A DNA stretch of 64,000 nt from Candidatus Thiodiazotropha sp. (ex Codakia rugifera) (GTDB lineage: Bacteria; Pseudomonadota; Gammaproteobacteria; Chromatiales; Chromatiaceae), in the NCBI GenBank assembly GCA_025656675.1, contig JAHXHN010000002.1, forward strand, positions 723,302-787,301, given 5' to 3'. Of this stretch, positions 693-57,963 are shown piece after piece; positions within the stretch are counted from its first letter, which is position 1, and each line of letters begins with the position of its first letter. The notes beneath the pieces were generated by a model. That model was not told the origin of the DNA, made no database searches, and saw nothing but the letters and a program-made list of their open reading frames with translations. The position numbers and the translations under genes are program-made.

Positions 693-2645
693 CTAACGGG
701 GGGGATTGATCCCGTAGCGCTTCATCCGTCGATAGAGCGTGTTGCGGCTGAGGGTCAGCTTTTTTGCAACCCGGCTGACGTTCCAATGCATATCCTCGAG
801 TTCGCTCAACAGGACATCGCGTTCAGCGATCGCCAGGGAATTGAAAGTGGAATCGGGGTTGTCGGCCAACTCCTCTTCATAGATGGCAGTGCAAATCTCT
901 TCGGGTAGATCATTGACAGTTATAATCCCGTTTTCACACATTGCCGTTGTGGTGCGAAGCACATTGAGAAGCTGTCTGATATTGCCGGGCCAGGCGAAGT
1001 TTTCCAATATCCTCAATGCTTCCGGAGCCCATTCCAATTCCACAGTGTTACCGGCTTCCTGCTGTCCGATCTTTTGAATCAGCTGAAGTTTATCCTTGCG
1101 ATCACGCAGGGGGGGCATAGTCAGTGAGATGCCGTGTAATCGGTAATAGAGATCCTCGCGAAATTCCCCTTCCTCAACCATGCTCTGGATATCATGGTGG
1201 GTGGCACTGATCAGCTTGATGGAAACCTTGATCGGCGTTTCGCCACCGAGGGGGATGACTTCCCGCTCCTCAAGTACCCTGAGTAGGCGTGCCTGCAGAT
1301 GCAGCGGCATATCACCGATCTCATCCAGGAACAGTGTGCCGCCATCAGCCTGCGCGATCTTGCCGCGGTTTCCATCCCTGCTTGCACCGGTAAAGGCTCC
1401 CGGCCGGTAACCGAAGAGCTCACTCTCGATCAGTGACTCGGGCAGCGAAGCGCAGTTAACGGCTATGAAGGGTTTATCGCGACGAGAGCTGGCTTTATGC
1501 AGTGCCCGTGCAAACATATCCTTGCCGGTGCCCGTCTCTCCGAACAGCATGTAGGGTATATCCCGTTCGATTACCTTGAGAACGGTTTCCACGTTTTTCT
1601 TCATGCGAGGTTCATCGAAATGGAGCGAGTCTAATGCCTCAGCGCGTCCATGATAGATTTTTGTACTCTTTTTACTGCTGTTGAAAACGCCGATCGGTGC
1701 AGGATTAGGCGTACAGTTTTCCGGTGGCTGCAGGGTGGCGAAGAAGCGTCTGCCCTGTTGCGTCTCCCGAATGGGAAAGGCGTGTGTATGGGTTTGTTTG
1801 AGCAGGGTGGGGATGGAGGTCGTGAACAGGTCATTGATAAGGTGACCAACGATCTGCTTTGGTTTTTCGAGATTGAGCTGGAACATGGCGCTGCGATTGA
1901 CAGCCAGTATCTTTCCTTCCAGATCAAAGGCTATGGCGCCCTCGCCCAGGGTGCTGATGAACTCTGAGCGGGCATGAAAGCGAAGGACGAAGGCATTCTT
2001 CATGGCGCAGAAGAAGACACGATTTTCAATGACTTGCGCTGACATGTTCAATAGCACCATGGTGTGCTGCTGAGCCATTTTCGATTCACTTGAGGCGTCG
2101 AGAACCGCCAGGGTTTCACCGTGGGGGTCAAATATCGGGGCAGCAGCACAGGTCAGGCTGGCATTCCGGGCAAAATAATGGGAACTCTTATGGATAACCA
2201 GCGGCTTTTTTTCCACCAGGCAGGTACCCATACCATTGGTGCCCTGTGCCGCTTCGTTCCAGACAGCGCCCAATTGCATACCGGCATGGGCCGCAGCCTC
2301 GGTGAAGTGGGGGTCGCCAATATAATTCAACAGCACCCCATCACGATCAGTCAGCATGATGGCGTGACCAGAGCCTGCCAGCTGCTGGTATAGATTGGTC
2401 ATTTCCAGTCGGGCAATATCCAGTAACCGGCAATATTGATGAAGCCGTTCGTTGAGATCGGATTGTTCGATGATGACCGGATCGGGTGTCTCACCCGGAT
2501 CGAGCCCGAGGTCGTCCTTACATCGCCGCCATGAGCGAAGCGTCAGGTCATCGATTGTCGTGCTGACCGGTTGATTCCCTTCCAATGCCGTTCGCACGAA
2601 TTCGGCGTGACCGGGATTCTCCTGGTGCAGGATCGTTTGTTCCAC
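693..2645 (-). CDS. acoR: AcoR-like sigma-54-dependent transcriptional activator
   Basis: This 650-residue bacterial enhancer-binding protein has an N-terminal GAF-type sensor region (about 60-220) and a linker with a PAS-like look (about 225-300). The sigma-54 AAA+ domain has Walker A GETGTGKD at 369-376, the sigma-54 contact loop GAFTGA at 416-421 and Walker B GGTLFLDE at 435-442. A C-terminal Fis-type helix-turn-helix lies at about 620-645. The domain order and the N-terminal sequence match the AcoR family, which controls acetoin or alcohol oxidation genes. It stands alone, divergent from folP. Its leader carries TGACAA repeats related to palindromes in the 13.9-14.3 kb divergent promoter region, so it is the obvious candidate activator of the PQQ accessory genes. 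The inducer cannot be read from sequence. Confidence 0.88.
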
Positions 2646-3991: not shown

Positions 3992-6736
3992 TTACTCACC
4001 AGGCGCTACCCGGATGGCGCAGAATTTGAATTCGGGTATCTTGGCATCCGGATCCAGGGCCTCGTTGGTGAGCAGATTGGCCGCTGCCTCCTGATAACAA
4101 AAGGGAAGGAAGACCTGTCCAGGTTGCAATCCGCTGTCAGCCCTGGCGAATGCAGTGACTTCGCCACGTCGCGACTGCAGGCGGATCGGAGCGCCCGGTT
4201 GGACATTGATCCGGGTGAGTTCTCCAGGGTGGAGACTGGCGACCGGTAGCGGTTCGATACGGTCGAGCACTTCCGAGCGGCGTGTCATGACGCCTGTGTG
4301 CCAGTGTTCCAGCTGACGGCCGGTAATCAGTATCCAGGGATAGGCTTCATCCGGCAATTCGTCCGCATTGGTGAAGGGGGCAGGTGTGAAGGTTGCCTTC
4401 CCGGAAGAGGTCGGAAACTGTTCGGTAAAAATTACCGGCTGCCCCGGATCATCCTCATCCTGGCAGGGATAGGTCACTGATCCCGCCTCTTCCAGTCGCT
4501 CCCAGGAGATACCGGCGATGCTGGGCATGGCCTGTCGCATCTCGGAAAAAACCTCCCTCGGATGGTTGTAATGCCAGCCCAGCCCCAGCCGGTTGGCCAA
4601 TGCCTGAATGATCTCTAGATCCTGTCGTGCCTGACCGGGCGGAACCAGGGCCTGACGACCCAACTGCACGCGCCGGTCAGTATTGGTGAAGCTACCGTTC
4701 TTCTCGGCAAAGGCCGAAGCCGGCAGGATGACATCGGCATACCAGGCCGTTTCGGTCATGAAGATATCCTGCACTACCAGGTGATCGAGTCCGGCAAGTG
4801 CCATACGTGCATGATTCAGGTTGGGATCGGACATGGCCGGATTCTCACCCATGATATACATACCTTTTATTGTGCCCTCGGTAATGGCATGCATGATCTC
4901 TACCACAGTAAGACCGGGATTCGGATCCAGTGGCTGGCCCCATAAGGCTTCAAAGCGGGCTCTGGCATCCGGGTTGTCGACCCGTTGATAATCGGGAAAG
5001 ACCATTGGGATCAAACCGACATCTGATGCACCCTGTACATTGTTCTGCCCACGCAGGGGATGCAGACCGGTGCCTGGACGGCCGATCTGCCCGGTCATCA
5101 GGGCCAGAGAGATGAGGGCGCGGGCATTGTCAGTGCCATGCACATGCTGAGAGACGCCCATACCCCAAAAGATGATTGAGGCTTTTGAAGAGGCATAGAG
5201 ACGCGCCACTTCGCGGATGGTGGCTGCATCGATACCACACACAGAGGCCATGGCATCGGGCGTAAACGGCAGCAGGTGTGATTCCAGTGCCTGAAAACCA
5301 TGGGTACGTTCGGCAATGAATTTTCTATCCACCAGATCCTGCTCGATCACAGCGTGCATGATGGCATTGAGCAGGGCCACATCGGTGTCAGGTTTGAAGT
5401 GGAGAAAGTGCGTGGCATGTTTGGCAATTGCAGTACGGCGGGGATCCATCACAATCAATGTCTTGCCTGCCCTGACCTCATTCTTCATGAATGTGGCGGC
5501 TACCGGATGATTTTCAGTGGTGTTGGAACCGATGATCAGGATCAATTCCGCATCGCTGACATCCGCTACCGGATTGGAGACTGCGCCGGAGCCGATCATC
5601 TCCAGCAAAGCCACCACGGAGGAAGCATGACAGAGACGGGTACAGTGATCCACATTGTTACTGCCAAAGCCGGTGCGGATCAGTTTCTGAAATAGATAGG
5701 CCTCCTCATTGGAGCACTTGGCGGAACCGAAGCCGGCGAGTCCGGCAGGACCCAATTGATTACCCAGGTTACGGAGTCCCGCAGCGGCGAAATCCAATGC
5801 CTCATCCCAGCTTGCTTCACGAAAATCCTTAAAAGGGTTTTCCCGATCAAGACCAAGTGCAGCCTGTTTTGGTACATCTTTCCGTCGAATCAACGGGACA
5901 GTCAGGCGTTGGGGATGGTGGACATAGTCAAAGCCGTAACGCCCTTTGACACAGAGTCGGCTGTTATTCGCCGGTCCATCACGACCGGTAACAAAATGTA
6001 TCTGGTTATCACTGATATGATAGGTAAGCTGGCAACCCACACCACAGTAGGGGCAGACAGAATCGATCTCTTTTTCGACCACTGTCTGGCCCACTCCCTT
6101 GGCCGGCATCAGTGCGCCTGTGGGACAGACCTGTACACACTCGCCACAGGCGACACAGCTGCTCTCTCCAAGCGGGTCTTGAATGTCGAACGTGATGGTG
6201 GACGCACTGCCCCGTCTGGCATAACCGATCACGTTGTTGACCTGTTCCTCACGGCAGGCCCGCAAGCAACGGGTACACTGAATACAGGCGTCAAGGTTGA
6301 CTGCGATGGCGGGGTGTGAGAGGTCAGTCGCCGGTTGTTGTCGGCCAGGAAAGCGGGGTTTCCCAAGTTGCAGTTTCATAGACCATTGGTCGAGTTCACT
6401 GGTCGGACTATAGCGGGTTTCTGCAATATCGGATTGAAGCAGTTCCAGCACCAGTTTTTGTGCCTTTCGGGGACGTGTGCCGTTGCTGTTGACCACCATT
6501 CCCTCGCTGGGTGTTCGACAGCAGGAGGCTGCCAGAACCCGCTCACCCTCAATCTCAACCATACAGGCACGGCAGTTGCCATCGGCTCGTAGTCCCGACT
6601 TGTAGCAGAGATGGGGAATCTCTGTGCCGGTACGTTGTGCGGTCTCTAGCAAAGTCTCACCCGGGACGGCGCTAACGGGTCTGCCGTCGAGGATGAAATT
6701 GATTGCCTGATCTGAGGGCAGCGTATTATTCGCCAT
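3992..6736 (-). CDS. fdhA: NAD-dependent formate dehydrogenase, catalytic alpha subunit (FdsA/Fdh1A type)
   Basis: This is the soluble molybdenum- or tungsten-bis-pterin formate dehydrogenase, which oxidises formate to CO2. The N-terminus is a [2Fe-2S] domain (C44, C55, C58, C72/73). Ferredoxin-like cysteine clusters follow at about 151-161 and 194-204, then the [4Fe-4S] motif CPYCGVGC at about 228-235. The metal ligand is Cys369 in HCTRLCHAS, followed by the catalytic His370. Length (914) suits the family. It overlaps the upstream fdh1B-type gene by 11 bp and shares its operon. A perfect-spacing sigma-54 promoter lies ahead of the operon. Whether Mo or W is used cannot be seen, but the closest remembered relative is Methylorubrum Fdh1, a tungsten enzyme. 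Confidence 0.93.
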   Translation of the reverse strand: MANNTLPSDQAINFILDGRPVSAVPGETLLETAQRTGTEIPHLCYKSGLRADGNCRACMVEIEGERVLAASCCRTPSEGMVVNSNGTRPRKAQKLVLELLQSDIAETRYSPTSELDQWSMKLQLGKPRFPGRQQPATDLSHPAIAVNLDACIQCTRCLRACREEQVNNVIGYARRGSASTITFDIQDPLGESSCVACGECVQVCPTGALMPAKGVGQTVVEKEIDSVCPYCGVGCQLTYHISDNQIHFVTGRDGPANNSRLCVKGRYGFDYVHHPQRLTVPLIRRKDVPKQAALGLDRENPFKDFREASWDEALDFAAAGLRNLGNQLGPAGLAGFGSAKCSNEEAYLFQKLIRTGFGSNNVDHCTRLCHASSVVALLEMIGSGAVSNPVADVSDAELILIIGSNTTENHPVAATFMKNEVRAGKTLIVMDPRRTAIAKHATHFLHFKPDTDVALLNAIMHAVIEQDLVDRKFIAERTHGFQALESHLLPFTPDAMASVCGIDAATIREVARLYASSKASIIFWGMGVSQHVHGTDNARALISLALMTGQIGRPGTGLHPLRGQNNVQGASDVGLIPMVFPDYQRVDNPDARARFEALWGQPLDPNPGLTVVEIMHAITEGTIKGMYIMGENPAMSDPNLNHARMALAGLDHLVVQDIFMTETAWYADVILPASAFAEKNGSFTNTDRRVQLGRQALVPPGQARQDLEIIQALANRLGLGWHYNHPREVFSEMRQAMPSIAGISWERLEEAGSVTYPCQDEDDPGQPVIFTEQFPTSSGKATFTPAPFTNADELPDEAYPWILITGRQLEHWHTGVMTRRSEVLDRIEPLPVASLHPGELTRINVQPGAPIRLQSRRGEVTAFARADSGLQPGQVFLPFCYQEAAANLLTNEALDPDAKIPEFKFCAIRVAPGE

Positions 6737-8429
6737 GTTCCAACTCCTCGGGAAAATAGCGTAAAACGCTCAACATTGGATTGGGTGCCGCCTGTCCCAG
6801 ACCACAGATAGAGGCATCCATCATGACCACGGAGAGTTCTTCCATCAGTGTTCTGTCCCACTGTTTCTGTTCCATGAGTGCCACGGCTTTCTCGGTACCG
6901 ACGCGACAGGGGGTGCATTGGCCGCAGGACTCATGGGCAAAAAAGCGCATTGCATTCTTTGCCGCTTCCCGGGCGCTGTCGTGTTGCGAGAGGACGATAA
7001 TGGCGGCTGAGCCGATAAAACAGCCGTGGGGCTGCAAAGTGTCAAAATCGAGTGGAATATCGGCCAGTGAGGCGGGCAGGATGCCCCCGGAAGCCCCTCC
7101 AGGGAAGTAGCCATAGAGTGTATGTCCCTGCGCCATGCCACCACAGTATTCATCTATCAACTCGCGCAGAGTGATACCCGCCGGTGCCAGATGAACGCCG
7201 GGTTTGCTGACCCTGCCGCTGACCGAGAAGGTACGTAGCCCCTGACGTCCGTGACGCCCCTGACCGGCAAACCAGTCAGCACCTTTTTCCAGCAGCTCCC
7301 TGACCCAATAGAGGGTCTCCATATTATGTTCCAGGGTGGGACGACCGAACAGTCCGACCTGGGCGACATAGGGTGGCCGCTGGCGGGGCATACCGCGTTT
7401 ACCCTCGATCGATTCGATCATCGCAGACTCTTCGCCGCAGATGTAAGCCCCGGCGCCCCGGCGCAGATGGATGGGAGGCATGGGATAAGGCGGGTCAGCC
7501 TGCAGGCGGGTCAACTCTTTTCTCAGCAGGGACCGGATGGCAGCATATTCATCGCGCAGATAGATATAGATCCCGGCAATATCGACTACCCGGGCAGCAA
7601 TCAGCATCCCTTCGATAAAACGGTGTGGGTCCTGTTCCAGGAGATGACGGTCCTTGAAGGTCCCTGGCTCACCTTCGTCGATATTGACCGCCATCAGTCG
7701 TGGACCGGATTGCTCCCGTAAGATGCGCCATTTGCGACCGGCTGGAAAGCCAGCGCCTCCCAGGCCTCTGAGGTTGGCATCCTCGAGAAGTTGAATGACC
7801 TGCTCCACTGACATCTTTTCCGTGTCATCGGACCCCTGGGTATCGATTCGGCCCAGAAGCTCATAACCGCCATCGGCACGATAAGTGTGGTAATCACGGT
7901 AAGCAGGTATCTCCGGCTGTATGCTGTTGCTGTCGACAAGCTGTTGTACTTTTTCGACCGTGGCAACAGCAACCTGATTTTTTCCCACTACCGCCACCGG
8001 CGCCTCCTGGCAGCAGCCGACACAGGGTACCCGTTGTACACGCACGCCATCACCCAGTGTGGACTGCAGATTATCGAACAACGCTTCGGCACCGGCCAAC
8101 GAACAGGATATCGAGTCACAGACCCGAACGGTCAGTGGGGGTGGGGCTGTTTCACCCTCTTTCACCAGATCGAAATGGTGATAGAAACTGGCCACCTCAT
8201 AGACCTCAGTGGCGGAGAGATTCAACTCTTGAGCAAGGGCAACCAGATGATCGGCAGAGATATGTCCCTGACTGTCCTGGATGCGATGCAAATGTTCGAT
8301 CAGTAAATCGGCGCGGCGCGGTGCATTTCCCAGCAGGTCTTTCACCTGGTTCAGGGCGGCTTGATTCACAGTGCGGCCTTTGGGGCGACCGTGCCGTCTT
8401 CTATGTTCGGATTTGGTTTTTGTAGACAA
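6726..8429 (-). CDS. fdhB: NAD-dependent formate dehydrogenase beta subunit, NuoE-NuoF fusion (Fdh1B type)
   Basis: The diaphorase subunit passes electrons from the formate-oxidising subunit to NAD+. Residues about 25-165 are a NuoE-like [2Fe-2S] thioredoxin fold (C104, C109, C136, C140). Residues about 190-567 are NuoF-like, with NIDEGEPGTFKD, GAGAYICGEE (FMN/NADH site) and CGQCTPCRVGT for the [4Fe-4S] cluster. In most fds operons these are two genes; the fusion is typical of Methylorubrum Fdh1B, including the N-terminal RPKGRTV segment. The start is a TTG at 8429, because a TAA lies five codons upstream and no ATG is available. Confidence 0.92.
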   Translation of the reverse strand: MSTKTKSEHRRRHGRPKGRTVNQAALNQVKDLLGNAPRRADLLIEHLHRIQDSQGHISADHLVALAQELNLSATEVYEVASFYHHFDLVKEGETAPPPLTVRVCDSISCSLAGAEALFDNLQSTLGDGVRVQRVPCVGCCQEAPVAVVGKNQVAVATVEKVQQLVDSNSIQPEIPAYRDYHTYRADGGYELLGRIDTQGSDDTEKMSVEQVIQLLEDANLRGLGGAGFPAGRKWRILREQSGPRLMAVNIDEGEPGTFKDRHLLEQDPHRFIEGMLIAARVVDIAGIYIYLRDEYAAIRSLLRKELTRLQADPPYPMPPIHLRRGAGAYICGEESAMIESIEGKRGMPRQRPPYVAQVGLFGRPTLEHNMETLYWVRELLEKGADWFAGQGRHGRQGLRTFSVSGRVSKPGVHLAPAGITLRELIDEYCGGMAQGHTLYGYFPGGASGGILPASLADIPLDFDTLQPHGCFIGSAAIIVLSQHDSAREAAKNAMRFFAHESCGQCTPCRVGTEKAVALMEQKQWDRTLMEELSVVMMDASICGLGQAAPNPMLSVLRYFPEELEHGE

Positions 8430-8505: not shown

Positions 8506-8520
8506 GCAACTTGTGTGCCA
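8506..8520 (-). promoter_or_regulatory. Sigma-54 (-24/-12) promoter of the formate dehydrogenase operon
   Basis: Read on the minus strand the site is TGGCACACAAGTTGC. It matches the sigma-54 consensus TGGCAC-N5-TTGC with correct GG-N10-GC spacing. The -12 GC falls at 8506-8507, placing a start near 8494, about 65 bp ahead of the TTG start codon at 8429. No TGTCA-N4-TGACA palindrome was seen upstream, so the activator is uncertain. Confidence 0.65.
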
Positions 8521-8689
8521 GTGTGAATATGTAGTCAGCATGTACCTAAGCAAGTTGGTGTATTCAACAAAGAGTGGCATGTTTTTCTCATGGGAGATAC
8601 CAACCCTAACGCCCATATTCAGATTGAGCAGGGCTATACGATCATTCTGGCACGCTTTCATCATGAATTACCGATGCATCACTGACCCA

Positions 8690-9673
8690 ATGGACTCAGC
8701 GCTAATGATAAAACACAGGCTAAGGGGTGAATTGAACAGGTGGCATTCCTTAAGACTTCGGACCCTTGTGGTGATGCTGCTGCTGTGTCTAGACACTGGC
8801 ATACTCAAGGCACAACCAAGTGAATTCATGGAAATCGCACCTGGCATCTATCTGCGGCCGGGGATTCAGCAAAATTTTGCCTCACACAATCGAGGACACA
8901 TCGCCAATATCGGTTTTATCGTGGGCAAACAGGCTGTTGCTGTGATCGATACCGGGAGTTCCTACCAAGAGGGATTGACCCTACGCCGGGCGATTCGTGA
9001 AATCACTGCCTTACCCATTCAATACGTGATTCTGACCCATATGCACCCGGACCATACCTTGGGAGCTGCTGCCTTTGACCAGGATGCCCCTGTATATATC
9101 GGTCATGCCCAGCTGAAAGATGCCTTGATCAGACGCCAGACCCACTATCTGGATAGGCTCAAGGAGGTATTGGGCAGTACAACGGAGGGAACCCGGCTGG
9201 TACTGCCCTCGGCGGGTGTTGAGGTCGGTCGGGCGGTGAGGTTGGAGTTGGGTGACAGGATTCTTGAATTACAGGCCTATCCAACGGCGCATACCAACAA
9301 TGACCTGAGTGTCTACGACAGGAACAGTGGGACATTGTGGCTTTCTGATCTGCTTTTTGTGGAACGGATACCCGTGGTGGATGGAAGCCTGCTGGGTTGG
9401 TTGGGGGTCATCGATTATCTGGATCAAAGCGAAGCCAAACGTGTAGTACCGGGGCATGGTCCGGTGGTCACTGAATGGAAAGCGTCACTGGCTGACCAAC
9501 GACGTTATCTCGATGCACTGCTGTCCGGTATCCGTGGGATCGTCAGACAAAACGGAACCATAGAGCAGGCGATAGAACAGGTGGGCCAGGAAGAAAAGGA
9601 TAACTGGCTGCTATTCGATGAGTACCATGGAAGGAATGTAACCGCCAGCTTTGTGGAACTGGAATGGGAGTAG
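8690..9673 (+). CDS. Metallo-beta-lactamase-fold hydrolase of quinoprotein (PQQ) systems
   Basis: The protein is exported, with a basic N-terminus and hydrophobic segment ending near LKAQ. Its zinc-binding core is THMHPDHTLG (HxHxDH), followed by a His in PTAHTNND, an Asp in LSDLLF and PGHGP near the C-terminus. It resembles the SoxH-related family annotated as quinoprotein relay system zinc metallohydrolase. These proteins occur beside PQQ-dependent alcohol/methanol dehydrogenases, and their substrate is unknown. The SoxYZ-like carrier gene downstream supports the assignment. The start is uncertain: the frame is open back to 8513, but residues before ATG 8690 or ATG 8705 do not look like a signal peptide. 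No strong ribosome site marks either ATG. Confidence 0.82.
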   Translation: MDSALMIKHRLRGELNRWHSLRLRTLVVMLLLCLDTGILKAQPSEFMEIAPGIYLRPGIQQNFASHNRGHIANIGFIVGKQAVAVIDTGSSYQEGLTLRRAIREITALPIQYVILTHMHPDHTLGAAAFDQDAPVYIGHAQLKDALIRRQTHYLDRLKEVLGSTTEGTRLVLPSAGVEVGRAVRLELGDRILELQAYPTAHTNNDLSVYDRNSGTLWLSDLLFVERIPVVDGSLLGWLGVIDYLDQSEAKRVVPGHGPVVTEWKASLADQRRYLDALLSGIRGIVRQNGTIEQAIEQVGQEEKDNWLLFDEYHGRNVTASFVELEWE

Positions 9674-12300: not shown

Positions 12301-13293
12301 TTAATGCCCTCCGGCGATAAACACGCCGAATGCGCGGGGGCTCTCTCCGGTTGGTATACGGTTGATGATTTCCAGTTTTTCCGTATCCAAAACAACCAGT
12401 TCGTTAGTGAACCAGTTGGCGATATAGATTCGTCCGTCTGTAGGGTCAGCGATGATGCCTTCTGGAAATTCACCAACTTTTAGTCGGCGGATCTCCCGTA
12501 ACTTATTTGCATCGATGACAGAGACTGAGTTGTCATGCTGATTGGTGACGAACACCCGTTGGCTGTTGGGTGTCACTGCAATGCCGTACGGTGTGCTGCC
12601 AACGGGTATGGTGGATATGACTTTTAATTTATCCAGGTCAATAACGCTCAGGTCATTACTGGCCACATTAGCAACATAGAGACGCTTTCCACGGCTGTCC
12701 ATGCGGATACCAAAAGGGCGCTTACCCACTTCGATGCGCTTTACCACCTGGTTCAGGTGAGTATCAATCACAGAAACAGTGTTGTCATCACGCTCTGCCA
12801 CATAGAGTCGCTCACCGTCCAGGTTCACTTCAAGGCCGGAAGGTGATTCACCGACCGGTATCTTTGCTAGGATCGATAGGTCTTCAGGGTCGAGGACATA
12901 CACCAGATCCTCATACCAGTCGGCTAGGTAGACACGACTTCCATCAGGCGTGACAGCAATGCCCAGTGGGCCCTGTCCAACCTGGCTGTGGGTAATCGTT
13001 TTGAGCTTAATCCCATCCAGAAGATAGACTTCGCGACTTTCCGGATTAGTCACATAGATGCGCTTGCCGTTATTGGATACAGCGACCCCGGCAGGCTTCG
13101 AGCCAACCTGTAAGGTTGCAGTCAGGCGTGATTCCTTCAGATTGATCACAGAGACCGAATCATCACCCTGATTAGTTATAAAGGCGTACTGTGCAGCGGA
13201 CCCTGGGGTACTTATCAGCAGTGCAATCAGGGCCAGAAACAATATCCCATAACGGGTTGAATGATTGAGTTGTATCTGAATCTCATTTTGCAT
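12301..13293 (-). CDS. YVTN-type beta-propeller protein of PQQ-dependent catabolism
   Basis: An exported protein of 330 residues with a signal segment (about 14-34). About seven propeller repeats follow, each with a variant of (R/E)xYVTN, xxSVSVID and a VGxxPxGI turn, typical of the YVTN/NHL family found beside PQQ dehydrogenases. There is no haem motif or catalytic signature, so a scaffold or docking role is likely. It is translated just after the MxaD-like gene (15-bp gap) and precedes the DSVLKRH protein. The second propeller at 15681-16682 is related but diverged, so the two are not a recent duplication. Confidence 0.85.
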   Translation of the reverse strand: MQNEIQIQLNHSTRYGILFLALIALLISTPGSAAQYAFITNQGDDSVSVINLKESRLTATLQVGSKPAGVAVSNNGKRIYVTNPESREVYLLDGIKLKTITHSQVGQGPLGIAVTPDGSRVYLADWYEDLVYVLDPEDLSILAKIPVGESPSGLEVNLDGERLYVAERDDNTVSVIDTHLNQVVKRIEVGKRPFGIRMDSRGKRLYVANVASNDLSVIDLDKLKVISTIPVGSTPYGIAVTPNSQRVFVTNQHDNSVSVIDANKLREIRRLKVGEFPEGIIADPTDGRIYIANWFTNELVVLDTEKLEIINRIPTGESPRAFGVFIAGGH

Positions 13294-13308
13294 GGTCTGG
13301 CCGGTTAT

Positions 13309-13842
13309 TTATGAGCCCTTTTCCAGCAGCTTCTTCAGATTCGACAGGCCGCTCTTGTAGACACCGGTCACCGCATCGACAGCGGCTTGATCGCTGAGTT
13401 CCGGTGGGGGCTCGTTGTTCGGGAAACCGCGATAGAAGGCACCCTTCCAGGTGACAATGCTTCCACCATCATCAGCAGGGGCTATGTTGAACCAGGAGGA
13501 GTAGTTGGTGACTGGAAGGACCTTTACGTCAACCTTCTCTATGCGGTAGAAAAACGAGTGTTTCTCGCTGTCGTATTTTTCCAGGATTTCATGGATTTTA
13601 CCGTCATTCGGCAGCATCAGTACCCGCTTGGCACCATTACTGTTGCCACCATCCCCCTCTGTTTTGATGACAGCCGGATGCCAGCTCATGTCATGAAAAT
13701 CCTTGACCACATCCCATACGGCTTGAGGAGAAGCTGAAATCTGCTCCTTGACGATGACCTTCTGGCGGGTAGGGCCATGGGCCTCAACCATCCCTGTATG
13801 GAATAAAATGATGGAGAAAAGGAGTGCGGCTGTTTTTATCAC
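13309..13842 (-). CDS. MxaD-like SRPBCC periplasmic protein
   Basis: A protein of 177 residues starting at GTG 13842, which has a perfect GGAGG five nt upstream. The frame extends to 13929, but those extra residues lack a signal sequence. The signal peptide ends near VEAHGP. The rest is a START/SRPBCC fold: VKEQISASPQAVWDVVKDF at the front, a central beta sheet and a C-terminal amphipathic helix (VYKSGLSNLKKLLEKG). MxaD, of the same fold, is reported to aid electron transfer between methanol dehydrogenase and its cytochrome. That role fits here but is inferred. It is the first gene of the minus operon behind a sigma-54 promoter. Confidence 0.8.
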   Translation of the reverse strand: MIKTAALLFSIILFHTGMVEAHGPTRQKVIVKEQISASPQAVWDVVKDFHDMSWHPAVIKTEGDGGNSNGAKRVLMLPNDGKIHEILEKYDSEKHSFFYRIEKVDVKVLPVTNYSSWFNIAPADDGGSIVTWKGAFYRGFPNNEPPPELSDQAAVDAVTGVYKSGLSNLKKLLEKGS

Positions 13843-13925: not shown

Positions 13926-13940
13926 GCAATATCCATGCCT
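13926..13940 (-). promoter_or_regulatory. Sigma-54 promoter for the minus-strand PQQ accessory operon
   Basis: Minus strand AGGCATGGATATTGC keeps GG-N10-GC spacing and an exact TTGC -12 box. The -24 box has one mismatch to TGGCAC in its first base and one in its last. It lies 84 bp upstream of the GTG at 13842, with the palindromes at 14004 and 14130 upstream of it. Confidence 0.5.
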
Positions 13941-14003
13941 GATCAGTGATAACCCGAGGGGTTGGTCGTTATGTGAGAGGCCGGGTATCTACTGGAAAAT
14001 AGC

Positions 14004-14019
14004 TTGTCACAGCTGACAA
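14004..14019. promoter_or_regulatory. Palindromic activator site 1 (TTGTCA-N4-TGACAA)
   Basis: A perfect 6-4-6 inverted repeat with spacer CAGC. Its half-site matches the repeats in front of the AcoR-like activator gene. Its centre is about 85 bp from the -12 box of the minus-strand sigma-54 promoter, a usual distance for an enhancer site. Confidence 0.55.
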
Positions 14020-14129
14020 AGGGCGGCTGTGTGGAAAATGACATGACGAATGAAGGTTTGGATATTGCCTATCATGCACCATACTTGTCATTCATTGTCT
14101 GATCGTTGAGACACTTCGACCCAATAGAG

Positions 14130-14147
14130 CGTGTCAGTATTGACACG
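14130..14147. promoter_or_regulatory. Palindromic activator site 2 (CGTGTCA-N4-TGACACG)
   Basis: A perfect 7-4-7 inverted repeat with spacer GTAT and the same TGTCA-N4-TGACA core as site 1. The two centres are 127 bp apart, about twelve helical turns. This site is about 129 bp upstream of the plus-strand -12 box. Further half-sites TTGTCA (14085-14090) and TTGTCT (14095-14100) lie between the palindromes. Confidence 0.55.
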
Positions 14148-14253
14148 ATCTGGTTCAAGGGTATCGATGCATGGATTCGACAGGAAAGCCATTCTTCTGA
14201 TTATCAGATGCAGATGGCTTGTATTAACCTAGGTTATAGCAAGTTAGCAGGAG

Positions 14254-14268
14254 TGGTATAAAAATTGC
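14254..14268 (+). promoter_or_regulatory. Sigma-54 promoter for the plus-strand PQQ ABC operon
   Basis: TGGTATAAAAATTGC has the exact TGG-N8-TTGC layout of a sigma-54 promoter; the -24 box continues as TGGTAT instead of TGGCAC. Expected start is near 14280, about 50-60 bp before the first gene of the operon. Confidence 0.5.
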
Positions 14269-14328: not shown

Positions 14329-15564
14329 GTGGGAGTTGTCTTGAAAAGATTGTCTTGGAAATCAAAAAAAAAGATAGATAGTCTGTTTTCGTTCGCTTTA
14401 CTTGTCGTTCTCTTCGGACTGCTTCTACCCTGTGTCGCCCTTGCGGCTGACAGAGAGATATCAATTGCCTTACTGGGATTGGAAGAAAAGCGCCATGTCC
14501 CACTCTCTCTGCTTGAACCGATTATTGATGACAATGGCCTGGCAGGTGCGGAGCAGGGGATTCGTGACAACAATACCACCGGCCGCTTTACAGGTCAGTC
14601 CTACAAACTCACCCAGGTAGAGGTGAAACCTGGAGAGTCATTGGAGCGTGCGTTCAAAGCGTTGCATACCCAGGGAATCAGGCTGTTCTTGCTCAATCTT
14701 CCCGCTGACCAGCAACTCAAGTTAGCAGACCTGTCTGAAGCACAACACAGTCTGTTATTTAATATTGGAGCGCATGATGACAGCCTGAGACGTCACGCCT
14801 GTCGGCCGAATCTGTTGCACACCTTACCCAGCCGGGCCATGCTGGCGGATGCGCTGGCGCAGTATCTGGCTTGGAAGCGTTGGCGCAAATGGTTTCTGGT
14901 GGTTGGCCGGCACCCACAGGACGAGGCTTATGCAGCGGCCCTCAAGCGTGCTGCGAAACGTTTTGGCGGTAAGATTGTAGAACAGAAGAAATGGACCTTC
15001 GAGCCGGGTGCCAGGCGTACCGATTCAGGCCACACCAAGGCACAGCAGGAGGTTAATGCGTTTACCCAAACGGGGGACTACGATATTTTGTTGGTCGCCG
15101 ACGAAACGGATGAGTTTGGCGAATACCTGGGTTATCGGACTTTCCGCCCCCGGCCGGTTGGCGGTACACAGGGGCTTTCACCCGCTGCCTGGAGCCGGGT
15201 GCATGAGCAGTGGGGTGCCACCCAGTTTCAGCGTAGGTTTCATAAAAAAACCGGGCGTTGGATGTCGGAACGGGACTACGCGGCCTGGTTGGCTGTTCGC
15301 AGCATTGGCGAGGCGGCTACCCGTACCTCCACTTCTGATGCAGATGAACTCCGTGCTTTCATTATGAGTCCTAAGTTCAAACTGGCAGCCTTTAAAGGGG
15401 GTCCGGTCACTTACCGCGAGTGGAATGGGCAGTTGCGTCAGCCACTGCTGGTCACTTCACCAAGGGTGATGGTCTCGGTCTCGCCCCAGAAGGGATTTTT
15501 ACATCAGTTTTCCACCTTGGATACATTGGGATACGACCGTCAGGAAACGGATTGTACTAACTAG
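14329..15564 (+). CDS. Periplasmic binding-protein-like component of PQQ-associated ABC system
   Basis: A protein of about 411 residues with a signal peptide (about 19-41, ending CVALAAD). It has a two-lobed type I binding-protein fold: an N-terminal lobe starting with ISIALLGLEEKR and a second lobe with KRWRKWFLVVGR. It matches the TIGR03863 type, annotated as the ABC transporter substrate-binding protein of PQQ-dependent alcohol dehydrogenase systems. The ATPase and permease follow in the same operon. The ligand is unknown. The start may be GTG 14329 or TTG 14341; the latter has GGGAG five nt upstream and is the better one. Regulation is probably by the sigma-54 promoter just upstream. Confidence 0.85.
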   Translation: MGVVLKRLSWKSKKKIDSLFSFALLVVLFGLLLPCVALAADREISIALLGLEEKRHVPLSLLEPIIDDNGLAGAEQGIRDNNTTGRFTGQSYKLTQVEVKPGESLERAFKALHTQGIRLFLLNLPADQQLKLADLSEAQHSLLFNIGAHDDSLRRHACRPNLLHTLPSRAMLADALAQYLAWKRWRKWFLVVGRHPQDEAYAAALKRAAKRFGGKIVEQKKWTFEPGARRTDSGHTKAQQEVNAFTQTGDYDILLVADETDEFGEYLGYRTFRPRPVGGTQGLSPAAWSRVHEQWGATQFQRRFHKKTGRWMSERDYAAWLAVRSIGEAATRTSTSDADELRAFIMSPKFKLAAFKGGPVTYREWNGQLRQPLLVTSPRVMVSVSPQKGFLHQFSTLDTLGYDRQETDCTN

Positions 15565-15680
15565 CTGTTAACACTCATCCAACCGTCGGGAGTCAGCCTG
15601 ATAGGCCCGGTTTCCGGATGGACACAAACAACAATGCGTCGGGATCGATCTAAATCCCTGAAATAACCAGGAGTGGCACT

Positions 15681-16682
15681 ATGCGATTGTTTGATTCAAC
15701 CTGCTACAGTCTCTGTCGCGGTTCGGCGATAGGGCTGCTGATGGCGACCTGTCTGCTGGTCAGCCCCGGTCTGCGGGCTTATACCATCTATGTGTCGAGT
15801 GAGAAGGACAATACCATTACGCTGGTCGATGGAGAAACTTATAAAATTCTACAGAAAGTGGAAGTGGGGGAACGGCCAAGGGGTATAGCCCTCAGCATGG
15901 ATGGTGCGCTGTTGTATGTCTGTACCAGCGATGCCGATCACATCGAGGTGTTGGACCTGGAAACCTTGAAGGTCACCCATGTGCTGCCGTCGGGTCCTGA
16001 TCCTGAGTTGTTGGTGCTGGGACCGGAAGGGCGCTATATCTACGTCGCCAATGAAGATGACAATATGGTGACTGTGGTCGATACAGAAAAGCGGGAAAAG
16101 GTGAAAGAGATCCAAGTGGGTGTGGAGCCGGAGGGCATGGCTATCAGTTCTGATGGTAAGTGGCTTGTGAATACCTCGGAAACCACCAATATGGCCCACT
16201 TCATCAACCTGGAGACGCTGGAGGTTGAAGATAACGTGCTGGTGGACCAGCGACCTCGTGTGGCTCAGTTCACAACAGATAACAAACAGGTCTGGGTCTC
16301 TTCGGAGATAGGAGGCACAGTGAGTGTGATCGATGTGGCAAGCCGGAAGATCATAAAGAAGATCGGCTTTGAGATACCGGGCATTCAGAAAGAGTCCATT
16401 CAACCTGTCGGTATCAAACACAGCAAGGATGGCAAACTTGCCTTTGTGGCCTTGGGGCCGGCCGCCAGGGTCGCGGTCATCAAAACCGGCAGTCTCGAGG
16501 TGGTCAAGTATCTACTGGTCGGACAGCGGGTGTGGAATATGGATTTCTCACCGGATGAAAAACAGATCTTCACCACCAATGGAGTGAGTAATGATATGTC
16601 GGTAATTGATCGTGAACGCCTGAAGGTAAAAAAATCCGTTCAGGTAGGGCGTATGCCCTGGGGGATAGTGGTTCGTCCATGA
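15681..16682 (+). CDS. PQQ-dependent catabolism-associated YVTN beta-propeller protein
   Basis: 333 residues with a signal peptide ending near GLRAYT, followed by YVTN-family repeats. Examples are YVSSEKDNTITLVDG, YVCTSDADHIEVLDL and YVANEDDNMVTVVDT, with VGxxPxG turns between. This is the propeller type (TIGR03866) that travels with the PQQ-linked ABC transporter. AGGAG lies upstream of the ATG, and its stop overlaps the ATPase start by 4 bp, indicating coupled translation. It shares architecture with the propeller at 12301-13293 but has diverged. Confidence 0.9.
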   Translation: MRLFDSTCYSLCRGSAIGLLMATCLLVSPGLRAYTIYVSSEKDNTITLVDGETYKILQKVEVGERPRGIALSMDGALLYVCTSDADHIEVLDLETLKVTHVLPSGPDPELLVLGPEGRYIYVANEDDNMVTVVDTEKREKVKEIQVGVEPEGMAISSDGKWLVNTSETTNMAHFINLETLEVEDNVLVDQRPRVAQFTTDNKQVWVSSEIGGTVSVIDVASRKIIKKIGFEIPGIQKESIQPVGIKHSKDGKLAFVALGPAARVAVIKTGSLEVVKYLLVGQRVWNMDFSPDEKQIFTTNGVSNDMSVIDRERLKVKKSVQVGRMPWGIVVRP

Positions 16683-17416
16683 GTGCAGCCGCCCTTGAGT
16701 TGACGGAAGTCAGTTTCTCCTATGCCAAGCGTCAAGTACTGAAGGATGTCACCTTCACCCTGTCGCCAGGTGAATTCTGTGTGCTGTTAGGCATCAATGG
16801 AGCAGGGAAAACGACACTTTTTTCCCTGATTACACGTCTGTTTGTCTGTCGTGGTGGTGAGATCAGTATCTACGGGCATAATCTTAGACAACAGACGTTG
16901 AAAGCCCTTGGACAACTCGGTGTGGTGTTTCAGCAACCAACCCTCGATCTCGATCTGAGTCTGCTGCAGAACCTCAGATACCACTGCGCATTACAGGGAT
17001 TGAATGCCCATGATCAGGAAAAGGGTATGCAAGCAGCCCTTGTAGCGATAGGGCTTGGTGATCGCGCAAACGATAAAGTCAGACAATTGAGCGGCGGTCA
17101 ACGGCGTCGAGTGGAACTGGTCAGGGCATTACTCCATCAGCCTCGCCTGCTGCTGGCTGATGAGCCCACGGTTGGGCTTGATATCCATAGTCGCCAGGCT
17201 ATTCTGCAACAGGTTCGTGAACGCTGTAGCCAGGATGGCATTGGGGTGTTGTGGGCCACCCATCTGGTGGATGAGGTGGAGCCAGGTGACCGCCTGGTCA
17301 TACTGCATGATGGTAAGGTGATGGCACAGGGCAGCGCGGCCCAAATCATGGAAGCGTCGGGTGCCGAGAACGTGAAACAGGCGTTCAATCGGCTAACTCA
17401 GGGTGTAGAGACTTGA
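16679..17416 (+). CDS. ABC transporter ATPase of PQQ-dependent alcohol dehydrogenase system
   Basis: A nucleotide-binding subunit of 245 residues: Walker A GINGAGKTT at about residue 39, a Q-loop near VVFQQP, signature LSGGQRRRVEL, Walker B LLLADEPT and a switch His in ATHLVDE. It matches the PQQ_ABC_ATP type (TIGR03864). The partner permease starts within its stop codon (TTGA overlap). The transported substrate is not known; an efflux or maturation role in the periplasmic oxidation system is inferred from context. Confidence 0.93.
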   Translation: MSAAALELTEVSFSYAKRQVLKDVTFTLSPGEFCVLLGINGAGKTTLFSLITRLFVCRGGEISIYGHNLRQQTLKALGQLGVVFQQPTLDLDLSLLQNLRYHCALQGLNAHDQEKGMQAALVAIGLGDRANDKVRQLSGGQRRRVELVRALLHQPRLLLADEPTVGLDIHSRQAILQQVRERCSQDGIGVLWATHLVDEVEPGDRLVILHDGKVMAQGSAAQIMEASGAENVKQAFNRLTQGVET

Positions 17417-18216
17417 CGCTGCTTCAGTATCTTCGCTGCCTGATAGGCATACTGGCCCGTGAGGCATTGCGATTTCTCCACCAGCGTGAGCGTTTCTTCG
17501 GTGCCCTGGTACGTCCTCTGGTCTGGCTGTTCATCTTTGCAGCAGGGTTTCGCTCGGTACTGGGCGTGTCGATCATCCCTCCCTATGAGACCTATATCCT
17601 CTATGAGGAGTATATTGTCCCGGGTCTGGCGGCAATGATCCTGTTGTTCAGTGGCATGCAGAGTTCACTCTCCATGGTCTATGACCGGGAGATGGGCAGT
17701 ATGCGGATGTTGATGGTCAGTCCATTCCCCCGCTGGTATCTGCTGTTTTGCAAGTTGATCGCCGGCTCCCTGGTTTCGATCGCACAGGTCTATCTATTCC
17801 TGTTTATCGCCTGGTTTTGGGAAGTGGAGCCACCTATGGTCGGTTACCTAATGGTTTTTCCGGCCCTGCTGTTATCCGGTTTGATGCTGGGTGCACTCGG
17901 TTTGCTGCTCTCCTCGGCAATCAAACAGCTGGAAAACTTTGCCGGGGTGATGAACTTTGTGATCTTCCCGATGTTTTTTGCCTCATCAGCCCTCTATCCC
18001 TTGTGGCGAATCAAGGATTCCAGTGTGCTGCTCTACGAAATCTGCCGTTTCAATCCTTTTACCCATGCCGTGGAATTGATCAGGTTCTCGCTGTATGGCG
18101 AGATCAATTGGATAGCACTTTCCGCAGTAGTCGGCTGCCTGTTGCTGTTTATGGCAGGTGCCCTGTATGGCTATGACCCGGCGCGTGGTCTGATGACCCG
18201 CAAGCAGGGTGGATGA
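17413..18216 (+). CDS. ABC-2 type permease of PQQ-associated transporter (PedC-like)
   Basis: 267 residues starting with a TTG that overlaps the ATPase stop. About six membrane segments are visible (VWLFIFAAGF, GLAAMILLFSGM, VYLFLFIAW, LLLSGLMLGALGLLL, MNFVIFPMFF, LLLFMAGALYG). It belongs to the ABC-2 export-type permeases found in alcohol-oxidation loci of pseudomonads (PedC-like). It follows the ATPase as expected for a one-ATPase, one-permease exporter. Confidence 0.9.
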   Translation: MTLLQYLRCLIGILAREALRFLHQRERFFGALVRPLVWLFIFAAGFRSVLGVSIIPPYETYILYEEYIVPGLAAMILLFSGMQSSLSMVYDREMGSMRMLMVSPFPRWYLLFCKLIAGSLVSIAQVYLFLFIAWFWEVEPPMVGYLMVFPALLLSGLMLGALGLLLSSAIKQLENFAGVMNFVIFPMFFASSALYPLWRIKDSSVLLYEICRFNPFTHAVELIRFSLYGEINWIALSAVVGCLLLFMAGALYGYDPARGLMTRKQGG

Positions 18217-55373: not shown

Positions 55374-56036
55374 TTATCGCGCTGTATTTTTTTCCGTATT
55401 GAGTGCCCACACGGCAGCCTCAGTTCTGGAGTGAAGATTGAGCTTTTTCAGCAGGTGCTTGACATGCACCTTGACTGTACCCTCTGAGATCTCCAGCGTC
55501 TTGGCAATCTGCTTGTTGCTCATGCCGTGAGAAATCTGCTGCAGAATCTCCCGCTCTCTAGCGGTAAGGGCGGTAATTGAATCTTGCTCGTTAATCCTGT
55601 CATCTTCCCTCAGTGCCTTAGCGAGCAGTTGTGTCAAGTGGTCACTGATCACCACAGTGCCCTGTACCGCTTTGCGAATAGATCTTAGAATATCCTCAGG
55701 TTCCATATCCTTGAGAAGGTAGCCGTCTGCGCCGCTTCTCAGAGCAGTCAGCACATCCTCTTCGTTATCGGAGACGGTCAACATGAGAATTCGCGAGTCG
55801 ATATCCTGATCCTTGATGGCCTTAAGCGTTTCCAGCCCGTTCATGCCCTTCATATTGATATCGAGCAGTATCAAGTCTGGATTAAACTGCTTCGCCACTG
55901 ACAGGCCATCCGGTCCGTTGGCTGCTTCGCCAATCAATTCCAGCGTATCATCCATGCCGATCAGGTCAGAGACCCCTTTTCTGAAGAGTGGATGGTCATC
56001 GATGGCAAGAATGGTATGTTTTCGTGACTCAGGCAT
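55374..56036 (-). CDS. narL: Nitrate/nitrite response regulator NarL
   Basis: 220 residues. Receiver domain: acidic pair D13/D14, phospho-acceptor Asp59 in ILLDINMKGMNG, Lys in LLKDMEPEDI. LuxR-type DNA-binding domain at about 152-200 (LTAREREILQQISHG, SEGTVKVHVKHLLKKLNLHSR). Similarity to E. coli NarL is evident throughout. It overlaps the end of the sensor kinase gene by 8 bp. Confidence 0.95.
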   Translation of the reverse strand: MPESRKHTILAIDDHPLFRKGVSDLIGMDDTLELIGEAANGPDGLSVAKQFNPDLILLDINMKGMNGLETLKAIKDQDIDSRILMLTVSDNEEDVLTALRSGADGYLLKDMEPEDILRSIRKAVQGTVVISDHLTQLLAKALREDDRINEQDSITALTAREREILQQISHGMSNKQIAKTLEISEGTVKVHVKHLLKKLNLHSRTEAAVWALNTEKNTAR

Positions 56037-57963
56037 TTTTTAACTGCTCGACTAGCATCTTCTTGGATTCACTGTTAGTTGCATCTGTGATGCTAAAACT
56101 GAGATTTATCTGAGTGCCCCCGGTTGGGGACTCGTTGATATTCAGACTTCCCCCTAGCCATTCAGCACGTTCTTTCATAATAGGTAATCCATAGTGTTGC
56201 ATCATATCACCTTCATCATTGATCCCGATGCCATCGTCCTCAATAGAGACTTTTACCAAACCTTGTTGGTTACATTCAAGACTCACACTGGCCTGGGTGG
56301 CATTGGCATGACGAATAACATTCGAAAGGGCTTCACGTATGATCTGGATTATGTGTATCTCGGCGTTGGGTGTGAATTGACAATTGCCGATATGATTGGT
56401 GTATTCAATGGGGATGCCAGATCGATTAGCGAACTCCTCAACGGTTTGCCCCACCACCTTGCCCAGATTGGCATCGGTGACTCTGAGTCGGAATGTGGTG
56501 AGTAGTTCACGGAGCTGACGATAGGCGCCATTGAGGGCCGAGCGCAGGGCGGCAGTAACCGAAAGAATCTCTTTTTTATCACTGTCTTCGTTGATTGCTT
56601 TTTCCAGTCGGGATACCTGAATCTTCAGATATGAAAGTGATTGGGCGATGGAATCATGAAGCTCTCTGGCTATGACGCTACGTTCCTCCATTAATGATAC
56701 TTTACGTTTCTGGGTTACCTGCTGAGCAACATTGATTGCCAGAGCAATATTGCTTGCAACGGTTTCTAAAAGGCGCTCCTGCCACTCTTCCAACTGCATC
56801 ACATCAGGATATTCGACTAACAAAACACCGTATTGCTGGGTTTTGTCGCGAACCGGTGTGGAAAAGATGTTAACTGAATTATGTGTATCAAATGCAGTAA
56901 TCTTGAACGTATGAGACTTGCCTTCCCCAAGGCAGCTAGCGCACTGATTATCCAGTTTGTCCTGTAATAGGATATCGGTTTTTCTCGTGGATGCGTAACG
57001 ATAGGCTTGATCGTCTCCAGGTTGGCCAAGGCAGATAGTGCCGTTGTTGACCCCGATTAAGGACTCAATATCGTGTATTACTGCGACCAGAACATCCTCA
57101 CTCAAAGAAGAGTCACTCAGTCTTTTGGTGGCGGAATAGAGTAATTCCAGGGTGTGGTTGCTTCTTTCAAGATCGTGGGTTTTCTCACGTACTCTAGACT
57201 CGAGATCCGCATAGGTTACAGAGAGATCTTCCGCCATTACATTGAAAGCCTGGCCTAGCTGGCCTAGCTCATCTTCGCTGAGGTATCGGCTTCTGATTGA
57301 GAAATCACCATGCCGTGCCGCATTAGCACAGGCAAGTAGATTGCGAAGAGGATTGAGTACATAACTTTTGGTGAGATAGAGACTGACCAACGTGACCAGA
57401 AAAGTAAGACTCAGCAGCACAATCTGTATGATCCTCAGCTGCTGGTTTTTCTCCTCTGCATCTATTTCCAGTGCCTCCACGAAACGGTGGATATCATCAA
57501 CAAAGCTGTCCACCAGTGCAAGATAGTTACGTAAGCTGGTGTCGAGTTGACGCCTTTGCTGAGATGAGAGTGAGTCAGTCGCACTCAGCTTCAAGTAATC
57601 TTTCAGATTAGGAAGCATGGTTTCACGCCAGTGTGATTCGACTTCGTGATAGGTGTCAGTAACCTGTTTGTTTGGTCCTTTTGTCAGTACGTCATGAATA
57701 CGCGGACTGAGCAGACGTTGATTATATTCTGTCACCAGTTGACTGGTTCGTGTCGTTGCAAGCTCATGATGGAATTTGGTTCGGTGTACCAGGCTGCTGG
57801 CAATTCGATAGGATTGCATACGCAGTGTCCCCGCCTGGTTGATTGCAGCAGCATAGCCTTCAGCGGTCTCGGCAATAATCATCGAACTGACCATACCTGA
57901 TACAGCCAGGATGAAGAGAATGGTTATCACAGTACCGAATCGGAGTAGCAGTGAGTTTTTCAA
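56029..57963 (-). CDS. narX: Nitrate/nitrite sensor histidine kinase NarX
   Basis: 644 residues. Two transmembrane helices (about 8-30 and 180-198) flank a periplasmic sensor with the P-box INQAGTLRMQSYRIA at 41-55, the nitrate-binding signature. A HAMP domain is followed by a central GAF-like module with CASC (compare CQLC in E. coli NarX). The HisKA_3 kinase has His436 in ARELHDSIAQ and ends in a DDGIGI ATPase box. The start is TTG 57963; no ATG is available close by. Confidence 0.93.
   Translation of the reverse strand: MKNSLLLRFGTVITILFILAVSGMVSSMIIAETAEGYAAAINQAGTLRMQSYRIASSLVHRTKFHHELATTRTSQLVTEYNQRLLSPRIHDVLTKGPNKQVTDTYHEVESHWRETMLPNLKDYLKLSATDSLSSQQRRQLDTSLRNYLALVDSFVDDIHRFVEALEIDAEEKNQQLRIIQIVLLSLTFLVTLVSLYLTKSYVLNPLRNLLACANAARHGDFSIRSRYLSEDELGQLGQAFNVMAEDLSVTYADLESRVREKTHDLERSNHTLELLYSATKRLSDSSLSEDVLVAVIHDIESLIGVNNGTICLGQPGDDQAYRYASTRKTDILLQDKLDNQCASCLGEGKSHTFKITAFDTHNSVNIFSTPVRDKTQQYGVLLVEYPDVMQLEEWQERLLETVASNIALAINVAQQVTQKRKVSLMEERSVIARELHDSIAQSLSYLKIQVSRLEKAINEDSDKKEILSVTAALRSALNGAYRQLRELLTTFRLRVTDANLGKVVGQTVEEFANRSGIPIEYTNHIGNCQFTPNAEIHIIQIIREALSNVIRHANATQASVSLECNQQGLVKVSIEDDGIGINDEGDMMQHYGLPIMKERAEWLGGSLNINESPTGGTQINLSFSITDATNSESKKMLVEQLKNA

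Follow-up and report, generated by a model that had tools for sequence, protein, structure and literature searches.

A palindromic candidate enhancer between divergent sigma-54-type promoters co-occurs with one clade of GAF–AAA+–Fis activators in Candidatus Thiodiazotropha and related genomes

The divergent locus and its gene neighborhood

The locus considered here lies in a window (i.e., the whole stretch of DNA that was analyzed, 64,000 nucleotides) from a genome of Candidatus Thiodiazotropha (G000), a group of lucinid-clam symbionts, and features two operons on either side of a shared control region (13926–14268). The operon on the minus strand (12301–13842) codes for an MxaD-like protein with a PF10604 (Polyketide_cyc2) domain (13309–13842, with a GTG start chosen in annotation) and a beta-propeller protein with TIGR02276 repeats (12301–13293) that scores under the TIGR03866 cut-off. 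The MxaD-like protein has no NCBIfam match, and we infer the name mxaD from excerpts of Table 1 of PMC12172469. The operon on the plus strand (14329–18216) comprises four PQQ-associated genes, which code for the substrate-binding protein of a PQQ-dependent alcohol dehydrogenase system (14329–15564, TIGR03863), a PQQ-dependent catabolism-associated beta-propeller (15681–16682, TIGR03866), an ABC ATPase (16679–17416, TIGR03864) and a PedC-type ABC permease (17413–18216, TIGR03861), all above the respective cut-offs.

The window also codes for a sigma-54 activator with the GAF–AAA+–Fis architecture (693–2645, minus strand; PF01590, PF00158 and PF02954), our candidate for the reader of the palindrome described below. 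Its AAA+ sigma-54 interaction domain is recovered with a PF00158 E-value of 3.9e-67 and displays the GAFTGA loop in the translation, and a C-terminal Fis-type DNA-binding domain maps to residues 604–644 (PF02954, E=2.3e-10). Among the best 25 of the 28 NCBIfam models that it matched, there is no named equivalog above cut-off; against the DhaR model, for instance, it attains 305 of the 551 bits needed. Between the activator and the divergent operons lie genes for a dihydropteroate synthase, a formate dehydrogenase (3992–8429, minus strand; a NuoEF-like protein and the alpha subunit) that is a possible further target, a SoxH-like hydrolase and a SoxYZ fusion. Downstream of the activator are matches to pterin-synthase-like, dihydropteroate-synthase-like and formylfuran-phosphate-synthase-like families, all under the curated cut-offs, which have the look of genes for C1-oxidation cofactors. 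Elsewhere in the window (55374–57963, minus strand), a gene for a LuxR-type response regulator is joined by one for a sensor kinase with a PilJ-type sensor domain.

Two outward sigma-54-type promoters

A sequence-only reading of this DNA had described two outward-pointing sigma-54-type promoters with GG-N10-GC spacing in the control region, and both are indeed present: AGGCATGGATATTGC (13926–13940, minus strand) in front of the mxaD-like/beta-propeller operon and TGGTATAAAAATTGC (14254–14268, plus strand) in front of the PQQ-associated ABC operon. Taken from the window sequence alone, these 15-mers mean little: promoter-like 15-mers with at most two mismatches are found 72 times across the whole window against 72.8 expected, i.e., at chance level. 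They carry weight because they are conserved across the palindrome-bearing genomes, where a TGGCAC-N5-TTGC-like 15-mer with GG-N10-GC recurs at a conserved position on both sides. The mxaD-side promoter is retained with GG-N10-GC and at most two mismatches in all 14 such genomes and the ABC-side promoter, at the same tolerance, in 13, the remaining genome (G402) having a 3-mismatch candidate picked out by eye. A sigma-54-type promoter on the ABC side is also seen in G016, G007 and G446, all of which are without the palindrome. The cognate sigma factor gene, rpoN, would be expected in G000 given its 21 strong PF00158 matches, next to which there are 6 weak ones.

An invariant palindrome with a companion element

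Between the two promoters lie two palindromes with centers 127 bp apart, just as the sequence-only reading had it: TTGTCACAGCTGACAA at 14004–14019 and CGTGTCAGTATTGACACG at 14130–14147. The core of the latter, GTGTCAGTATTGACAC (14131–14146), is a GTGTCA-N4-TGACAC palindrome and our candidate upstream activator site. The two are the only exact instances of TGTCA-N4-TGACA in the window, and with up to one mismatch this motif is found 7 times against 2.9 ± 1.8 expected. In dinucleotide shuffles, the exact GTGTCA-N4-TGACAC was recovered 0 times in 2000 for each of 16 regions, and the palindromes are thus unlikely to be due to chance. Across the G000 genome, the shorter TGTCA-N4-TGACA turns up 19 times, compared with 2 occurrences of the reversed control. 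However, we rejected a genome-wide regulon defined by it because 13 of the 17 sites outside the locus are within ORFs of at least 90 amino acids; the other four lie outside such ORFs, one of them at a contig end. The full GTGTCA-N4-TGACAC occurs a single time in the G000 genome, which accords with the compact regulon that had been postulated.

An alignment centered on this palindrome (14 rows, 12 of them distinct) shows GTGTCA and TGACAC to be invariant with variable letters in the N4 spacer. It further revealed a companion element, TGGTTCA (14151–14157, plus strand, on the ABC side; consensus TGRNTCA), whose TG and TCA are invariant in 14/14 rows. In every row it is positioned identically relative to the palindrome, with 10 bp from the first base of TGACAC to its own. 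From the center of the palindrome to the −24 box there are 81–116 bp on the ABC side in the genus and 204 in G401, and 161–202 bp on the mxaD side in the genus and 109 in both G401 and G402. The palindrome thus stays fixed while its distances to the promoters vary (81–204 and 109–202 bp), as would be expected of an enhancer. As is typical of an upstream activator site, it is situated tens to a few hundred base pairs upstream of −24/−12 promoters and tracks one activator group (see below). Its N8 spacer between TGT and ACA, seen in 14/14, sets it outside the TGT-N10..12-ACA site class, and the NtrC, TyrR and CRP/FNR site types do not fit in their spacing. Conservation for some other reason, such as transcript structure, or through chance inheritance strikes us as exceedingly improbable. 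The palindrome is, to be sure, common to the nearest relatives by descent; yet the flanks align poorly between the subgroups, even as all 14 regions share the same letters at 12 plus 5 positions and the N4 letters vary, and the palindrome lies upstream of both promoters and hence outside both predicted transcripts.

The second palindrome (14004–14019), centered some 72 bp away from the −24 box on the mxaD side, is specific to its lineage. It is exact in one of the 14 regions, that of G000; G001 and G011 retain TGT-N8-ACA at this position, and no second TGT-N8-ACA was found in the remaining 11. Thus, the two-palindrome layout is specific to G000, and the second palindrome may be an auxiliary site in its lineage. 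The half-site had also been noted to recur before the activator gene. This is so for isolated half-sites (TGACA at 2739, 2753 and 2770; TGTCA at 2808), but they form no conserved palindrome in the alignment of 11 genomes, leaving autoregulation through them unsupported; by eye, we would guess that they may be parts of sigma-70 promoters.

Co-occurrence of the palindrome with one activator clade

We compared 22 genomes of Candidatus Thiodiazotropha with G401, G402, G446 and the L136 genome from outside the genus. The binding-protein gene, which is found in 14 of the 22 genus genomes, yields matches of 93–94% identity in Candidatus Thiodiazotropha and of 70–73% in symbionts of Ctena orbiculata. 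Orthologs of the activator are present in 12 of the 22 (at least 73% identity; the G011 copy is partial and at a contig end), as well as in G401 and G402 (68–69%). Together these 14 orthologs (13 and that of G000) form one clade in the tree (support 100/100) and share the signature YRRM in the recognition-helix region, where all 29 homologs compared display YRK. In 10 of the 12 genus genomes the activator lies 11–16 kb from the transporter gene on the same contig, as it does in G402 at 16.5 kb; the two are on different contigs in G010, G011 and G401.

All 14 genomes with an activator ortholog (12 from the genus, G401 and G402) bear GTGTCA-N4-TGACAC in the orthologous divergent promoter region, with a different spacer, TTAT, in G401 and G402. 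The motif as such occurs in 14 of the 22 genus genomes; besides the 12 that are activator-bearing, these are G002 and G004, where it is found at unrelated places. The palindrome is absent in all four genomes that have the transporter gene without an activator ortholog (G016, G007, G446 and the L136 genome). Two of these, G016 and G007, display the ABC operon with its sigma-54-type promoter and neither activator ortholog nor palindrome; xoxF was not found in them at the threshold used, nor was an mxaD-like gene in their 20-kb loci. The L136 genome, a Hyphomicrobiales MAG whose transporter gene is 53% identical, has neither site nor ortholog in an unmasked search. L137, a 44% fragment, was left out of the counts.

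The most informative case, G446, emerged from a search of 92 relatives of G402 that yielded the gene in G402, G401, G446, G412 and G429; G412 is G009 again, as its coordinates indicate, and G429 was left out, its contig beginning just 71 bp ahead of the matched gene and yielding no match to the activator. In G446 the gene order is SoxH-like, SoxYZ, beta-propeller, mxaD-like and ABC operon, and xoxF is also present. A sigma-54-like site is seen on each side, with only 18 bp between that on the ABC side and the matched frame downstream of it. No GTGTCA-N4-TGACAC with up to one mismatch was found in this locus; between its two promoters is a poor N6-like site with two mismatches. The best activator match in this genome has 59% identity, falls together with the four paralogs of the 58% type in the tree (support 97/96) and carries YRKM. 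Since G446 retains the mxaD-like, ABC, SoxYZ and xoxF genes, the site goes missing with the regulator and not with the target genes. On the opposing side, the site was found, at up to one mismatch in an unmasked search, in 0 of 13 loci of homologs outside the clade (48–62% identity).

By comparison across genomes, then, the site and the promoters are conserved, and the site is both linked to and co-occurs with a single activator clade. The earlier proposal that TGTCA-N4-TGACA is a probable operator of the linked activator is supported for one palindrome, which tracks the orthologs (14/14 with, 0/4 without), and not supported in its two-palindrome form. We attach no significance figure to this co-occurrence because the genomes are not independent (12 of them are from one genus). 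The absences are also few, at four genomes, of which G016 and G007 also lack xoxF.

With 21 strong PF00158 matches in G000, it is possible that another activator is at work. For example, a 43% paralog (C3:106743) or a 58% paralog (C3:56448) might bind the palindrome, leaving the linked activator to serve formate dehydrogenase. The former adjoins a second PQQ alcohol dehydrogenase gene. In G118 and G241, homologs of the linked activator (60–62%) are found next to genes for formate dehydrogenase, and 9 of the 11 genus genomes examined have another dyad, GTGC-N12-GCAC, at the promoter of this enzyme. Nevertheless, we regard this as unlikely: the 43% paralog is also present in G016, G007 and G446, all without the site, and of the 12 genus genomes that bear the site only 5 yielded the 58% paralog above threshold, one of them a fragmentary copy.

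Some further observations concern these paralogs and the genomes without the site. In L097, where the second PQQ alcohol dehydrogenase (C3:102679–104265) adjoins the 43% paralog, sigma-54-like sites are seen nearby. GGGAT-N2..4-ATCCC, present in the ABC region of four genomes, was considered as the site of this paralog and dropped, for among the loci of the paralog covered here only L079 showed such a dyad, with other letters. A GGGATAAWATCCC-like palindrome, possibly the site of another regulator, is present in the ABC promoter region of G016, G007, G010 and G012 (L094, L095, L091 and L093).

Variant sites at xoxF, formate dehydrogenase and a TonB-receptor gene

A gene matching TIGR03075, which we take to be xoxF on the strength of the literature and of sequence features, is found in 12 of the 22 genus genomes, the same 12 that have the activator. 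In all 12 it is preceded by a perfect TGGCAC-N5-TTGC promoter. Upstream of this promoter, by 259–261 bp in three genomes and 498–525 bp in nine, is a palindrome of the N6 form, GTGTCAC-N4-GTGACAC (L161–L172, L204), so called for the six letters separating its core half-sites. It is seen in 12/12 genus genomes and in G446; of the 12, 9 match all ten core positions and 3 have one mismatch. The site at xoxF of G401 is of the N4 form with one mismatch. Thus, the search of related genomes that the sequence-only reading had suggested turns up the N4 palindrome at the ABC/mxaD-like divergent promoters in 14/14, but at xoxF the N6 form in the 12 genus genomes. The presence of the N6 site in G446, which has no activator ortholog, makes this form independent of that activator clade. 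In L189, L190, L192 and L193, the four loci inspected, the N6 site is placed between xoxF and a divergent gene, which codes for an alpha/beta hydrolase in L193, the one scanned.

The formate dehydrogenase operon has its own predicted sigma-54-type promoter, TGGCACACAAGTTGC (8506–8520, minus strand), a 15-mer identical in G000 to that of xoxF. It is recovered with 0 mismatches in 13/13 activator-bearing genomes examined (11 from the genus, G401 and G402; it was not located in G011, where the first apparent candidate turned out to be the xoxF promoter) and has decayed in G016 and G007 (TGACAAAAGTATTGC). No GTGTCA palindrome was found at this promoter. The GTGC-N12-GCAC dyad mentioned above lies upstream of it (8506–8900 of the window and orthologous regions), the two genus genomes without it being G000 and G001. 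Downstream of fdhA, a sigma-54-like TGGCCC-N5-CTGC site is present in 11 of 15 loci (L084–L090 and L092–L095), including those of G016 and G007, and is not seen in G000 and G001.

A second GTGTCA-N4-TGACAC site is present in 7 of the 22 genus genomes, i.e., 7 of the 12 site-bearing ones. In L184, L185 and L186, GTGTCAC-NN-GTGACAC (an exact N4 site) is found upstream of a gene for a TonB receptor that is accompanied by ExbB, ExbD and TonB genes; there is no sigma-54 promoter with up to two mismatches at this receptor gene. In the three loci inspected in detail, a gene for a MoxY-type kinase and one for a putative LuxR-type regulator are near this site.

The N6 half-sites at xoxF, including that of G446, and GTGTCAC-NN-GTGACAC at the TonB receptor suggest that another protein may read such half-sites. 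This could be a regulator outside the sigma-54 system, e.g., the LuxR-type protein paired with the MoxY-type kinase, that recognizes the GTGTCA half-site at various spacings and has a modulating effect on the promoters. Such an arrangement would suit the location of GTGTCAC-NN-GTGACAC between the kinase/putative LuxR-type regulator pair and the receptor gene in L184 and L185, as well as the N6 variants in 12/12 genus genomes and G446, and MoxX is named in an excerpted figure legend on C1 genes in PMC6712303. Set against this are the restriction of the second N4 site to 7 of 12 genomes and the outcome of using the LuxR-type regulator as a query against 30 cluster sequences, which yielded only a 31% identical protein (window 55419–56012). 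Moreover, a LuxR regulator is not known to open sigma-54 promoters on its own. We consider this explanation improbable.

A proposed enhancer for two divergent operons

Returning to the linked activator, we propose that the palindrome at 14131–14146 is quite probably its enhancer and drives both the mxaD-like and the PQQ-associated ABC operons. Binding, looping, the signal and the direction of effect can be inferred along the following lines: The GAF domain would sense a C1-related signal, upon which the activator would bind the palindrome through its Fis-type helix-turn-helix and then oligomerize. It would next loop the DNA to the sigma-54 RNA polymerase at either of the outward promoters, such that a single site would switch on both operons. 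A broader and more doubtful conjecture, which we offer tentatively, is that the activator is a methanol switch of the lucinid symbionts. As such, it might read a three-part enhancer, GTGTCA-N4-TGACAC-N4-TGRNTCA, with 10 bp, or about one turn of DNA, from part to part, drive the two divergent accessory operons, and act on xoxF and formate dehydrogenase via variant sites. If true, a methanol oxidation system of the lanthanide type would here be under sigma-54 control through an enhancer, and the alternation of sulfide and methanol genes with the season would have an explanation. Lucinid symbionts are uncultured. The activator and the site make for a testable pair with natural controls in the genomes that lack both and in G446, where the genes are present but the pair is not.

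Relationship to known systems

The activator, the type of promoter and the enhancer logic are all of known kinds. Activators of the AcoR, DhaR, BmoR and MmoR type, which may be grouped in one family, share the same order of a GAF domain, an AAA+ domain with GAFTGA and a Fis helix-turn-helix. In contrast to these, the activator described here falls under the cut-off of the best 25 of its 28 matched NCBIfam models, and is linked not to acetoin, dihydroxyacetone or monooxygenase genes but to xoxF and to genes for a pterin cofactor and for formate dehydrogenase. NorR, another GAF–AAA+–Fis protein, reads GTCA-N3-TGAC sites. Their half-site is similar to that of the palindrome, whereas the latter has N4 spacing and adjoins genes of PQQ-linked oxidation, not of nitric oxide. 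According to excerpts of PMC6615313, activators of this kind are usually encoded close to their target operons, as is also seen here. The same excerpts report TGT-N10..12-ACA activator sites for FhlA, NifA and fifteen clostridial groups, the clostridial ones being mostly 100–250 bp upstream. The palindrome resembles these in its inverted TGT/ACA ends, predicted Fis-type reader and position upstream of a sigma-54 promoter, but differs in being TGT-N8-ACA (N10 at xoxF), in its longer invariant GTGTCA and in the additional fixed TGRNTCA.

The divergent locus contains the same genes as the PQQ-associated ABC/beta-propeller systems (TIGR03861–TIGR03866), for which no sigma-54 control was found in the open-access literature among the matches listed. 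Nor did those matches include the exact site, the TGRNTCA element or their pairing with this activator clade, and an open-access search on regulators of GTGTCA/TGACAC inverted repeats returned no title about sigma-54 activators. Hence, the site and its likely activator partner seem not to have been described before. The methanol cluster of lucinid symbionts itself has been described (PMC6712303, PMC11171427, PMC12172469 and PMC11237559), and the excerpts of these four papers name no sigma-54 activator for it. As reported in the excerpts of PMC12172469, mxaD, fdhA, MJ1427, xoxG and mch are among the top 100 symbiont transcripts in one season only, and aprA and aprB, of sulfide oxidation, only in the other; these excerpts name no regulator for the shift, to which the activator–site pair may be relevant. 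As to the layout of the cluster, the ABC operon lies about 61 kb from xoxF in G000 and about 6.6 kb from it in G001, a difference that points to a large insertion or rearrangement within this cluster (window 18900–64000 and beyond).
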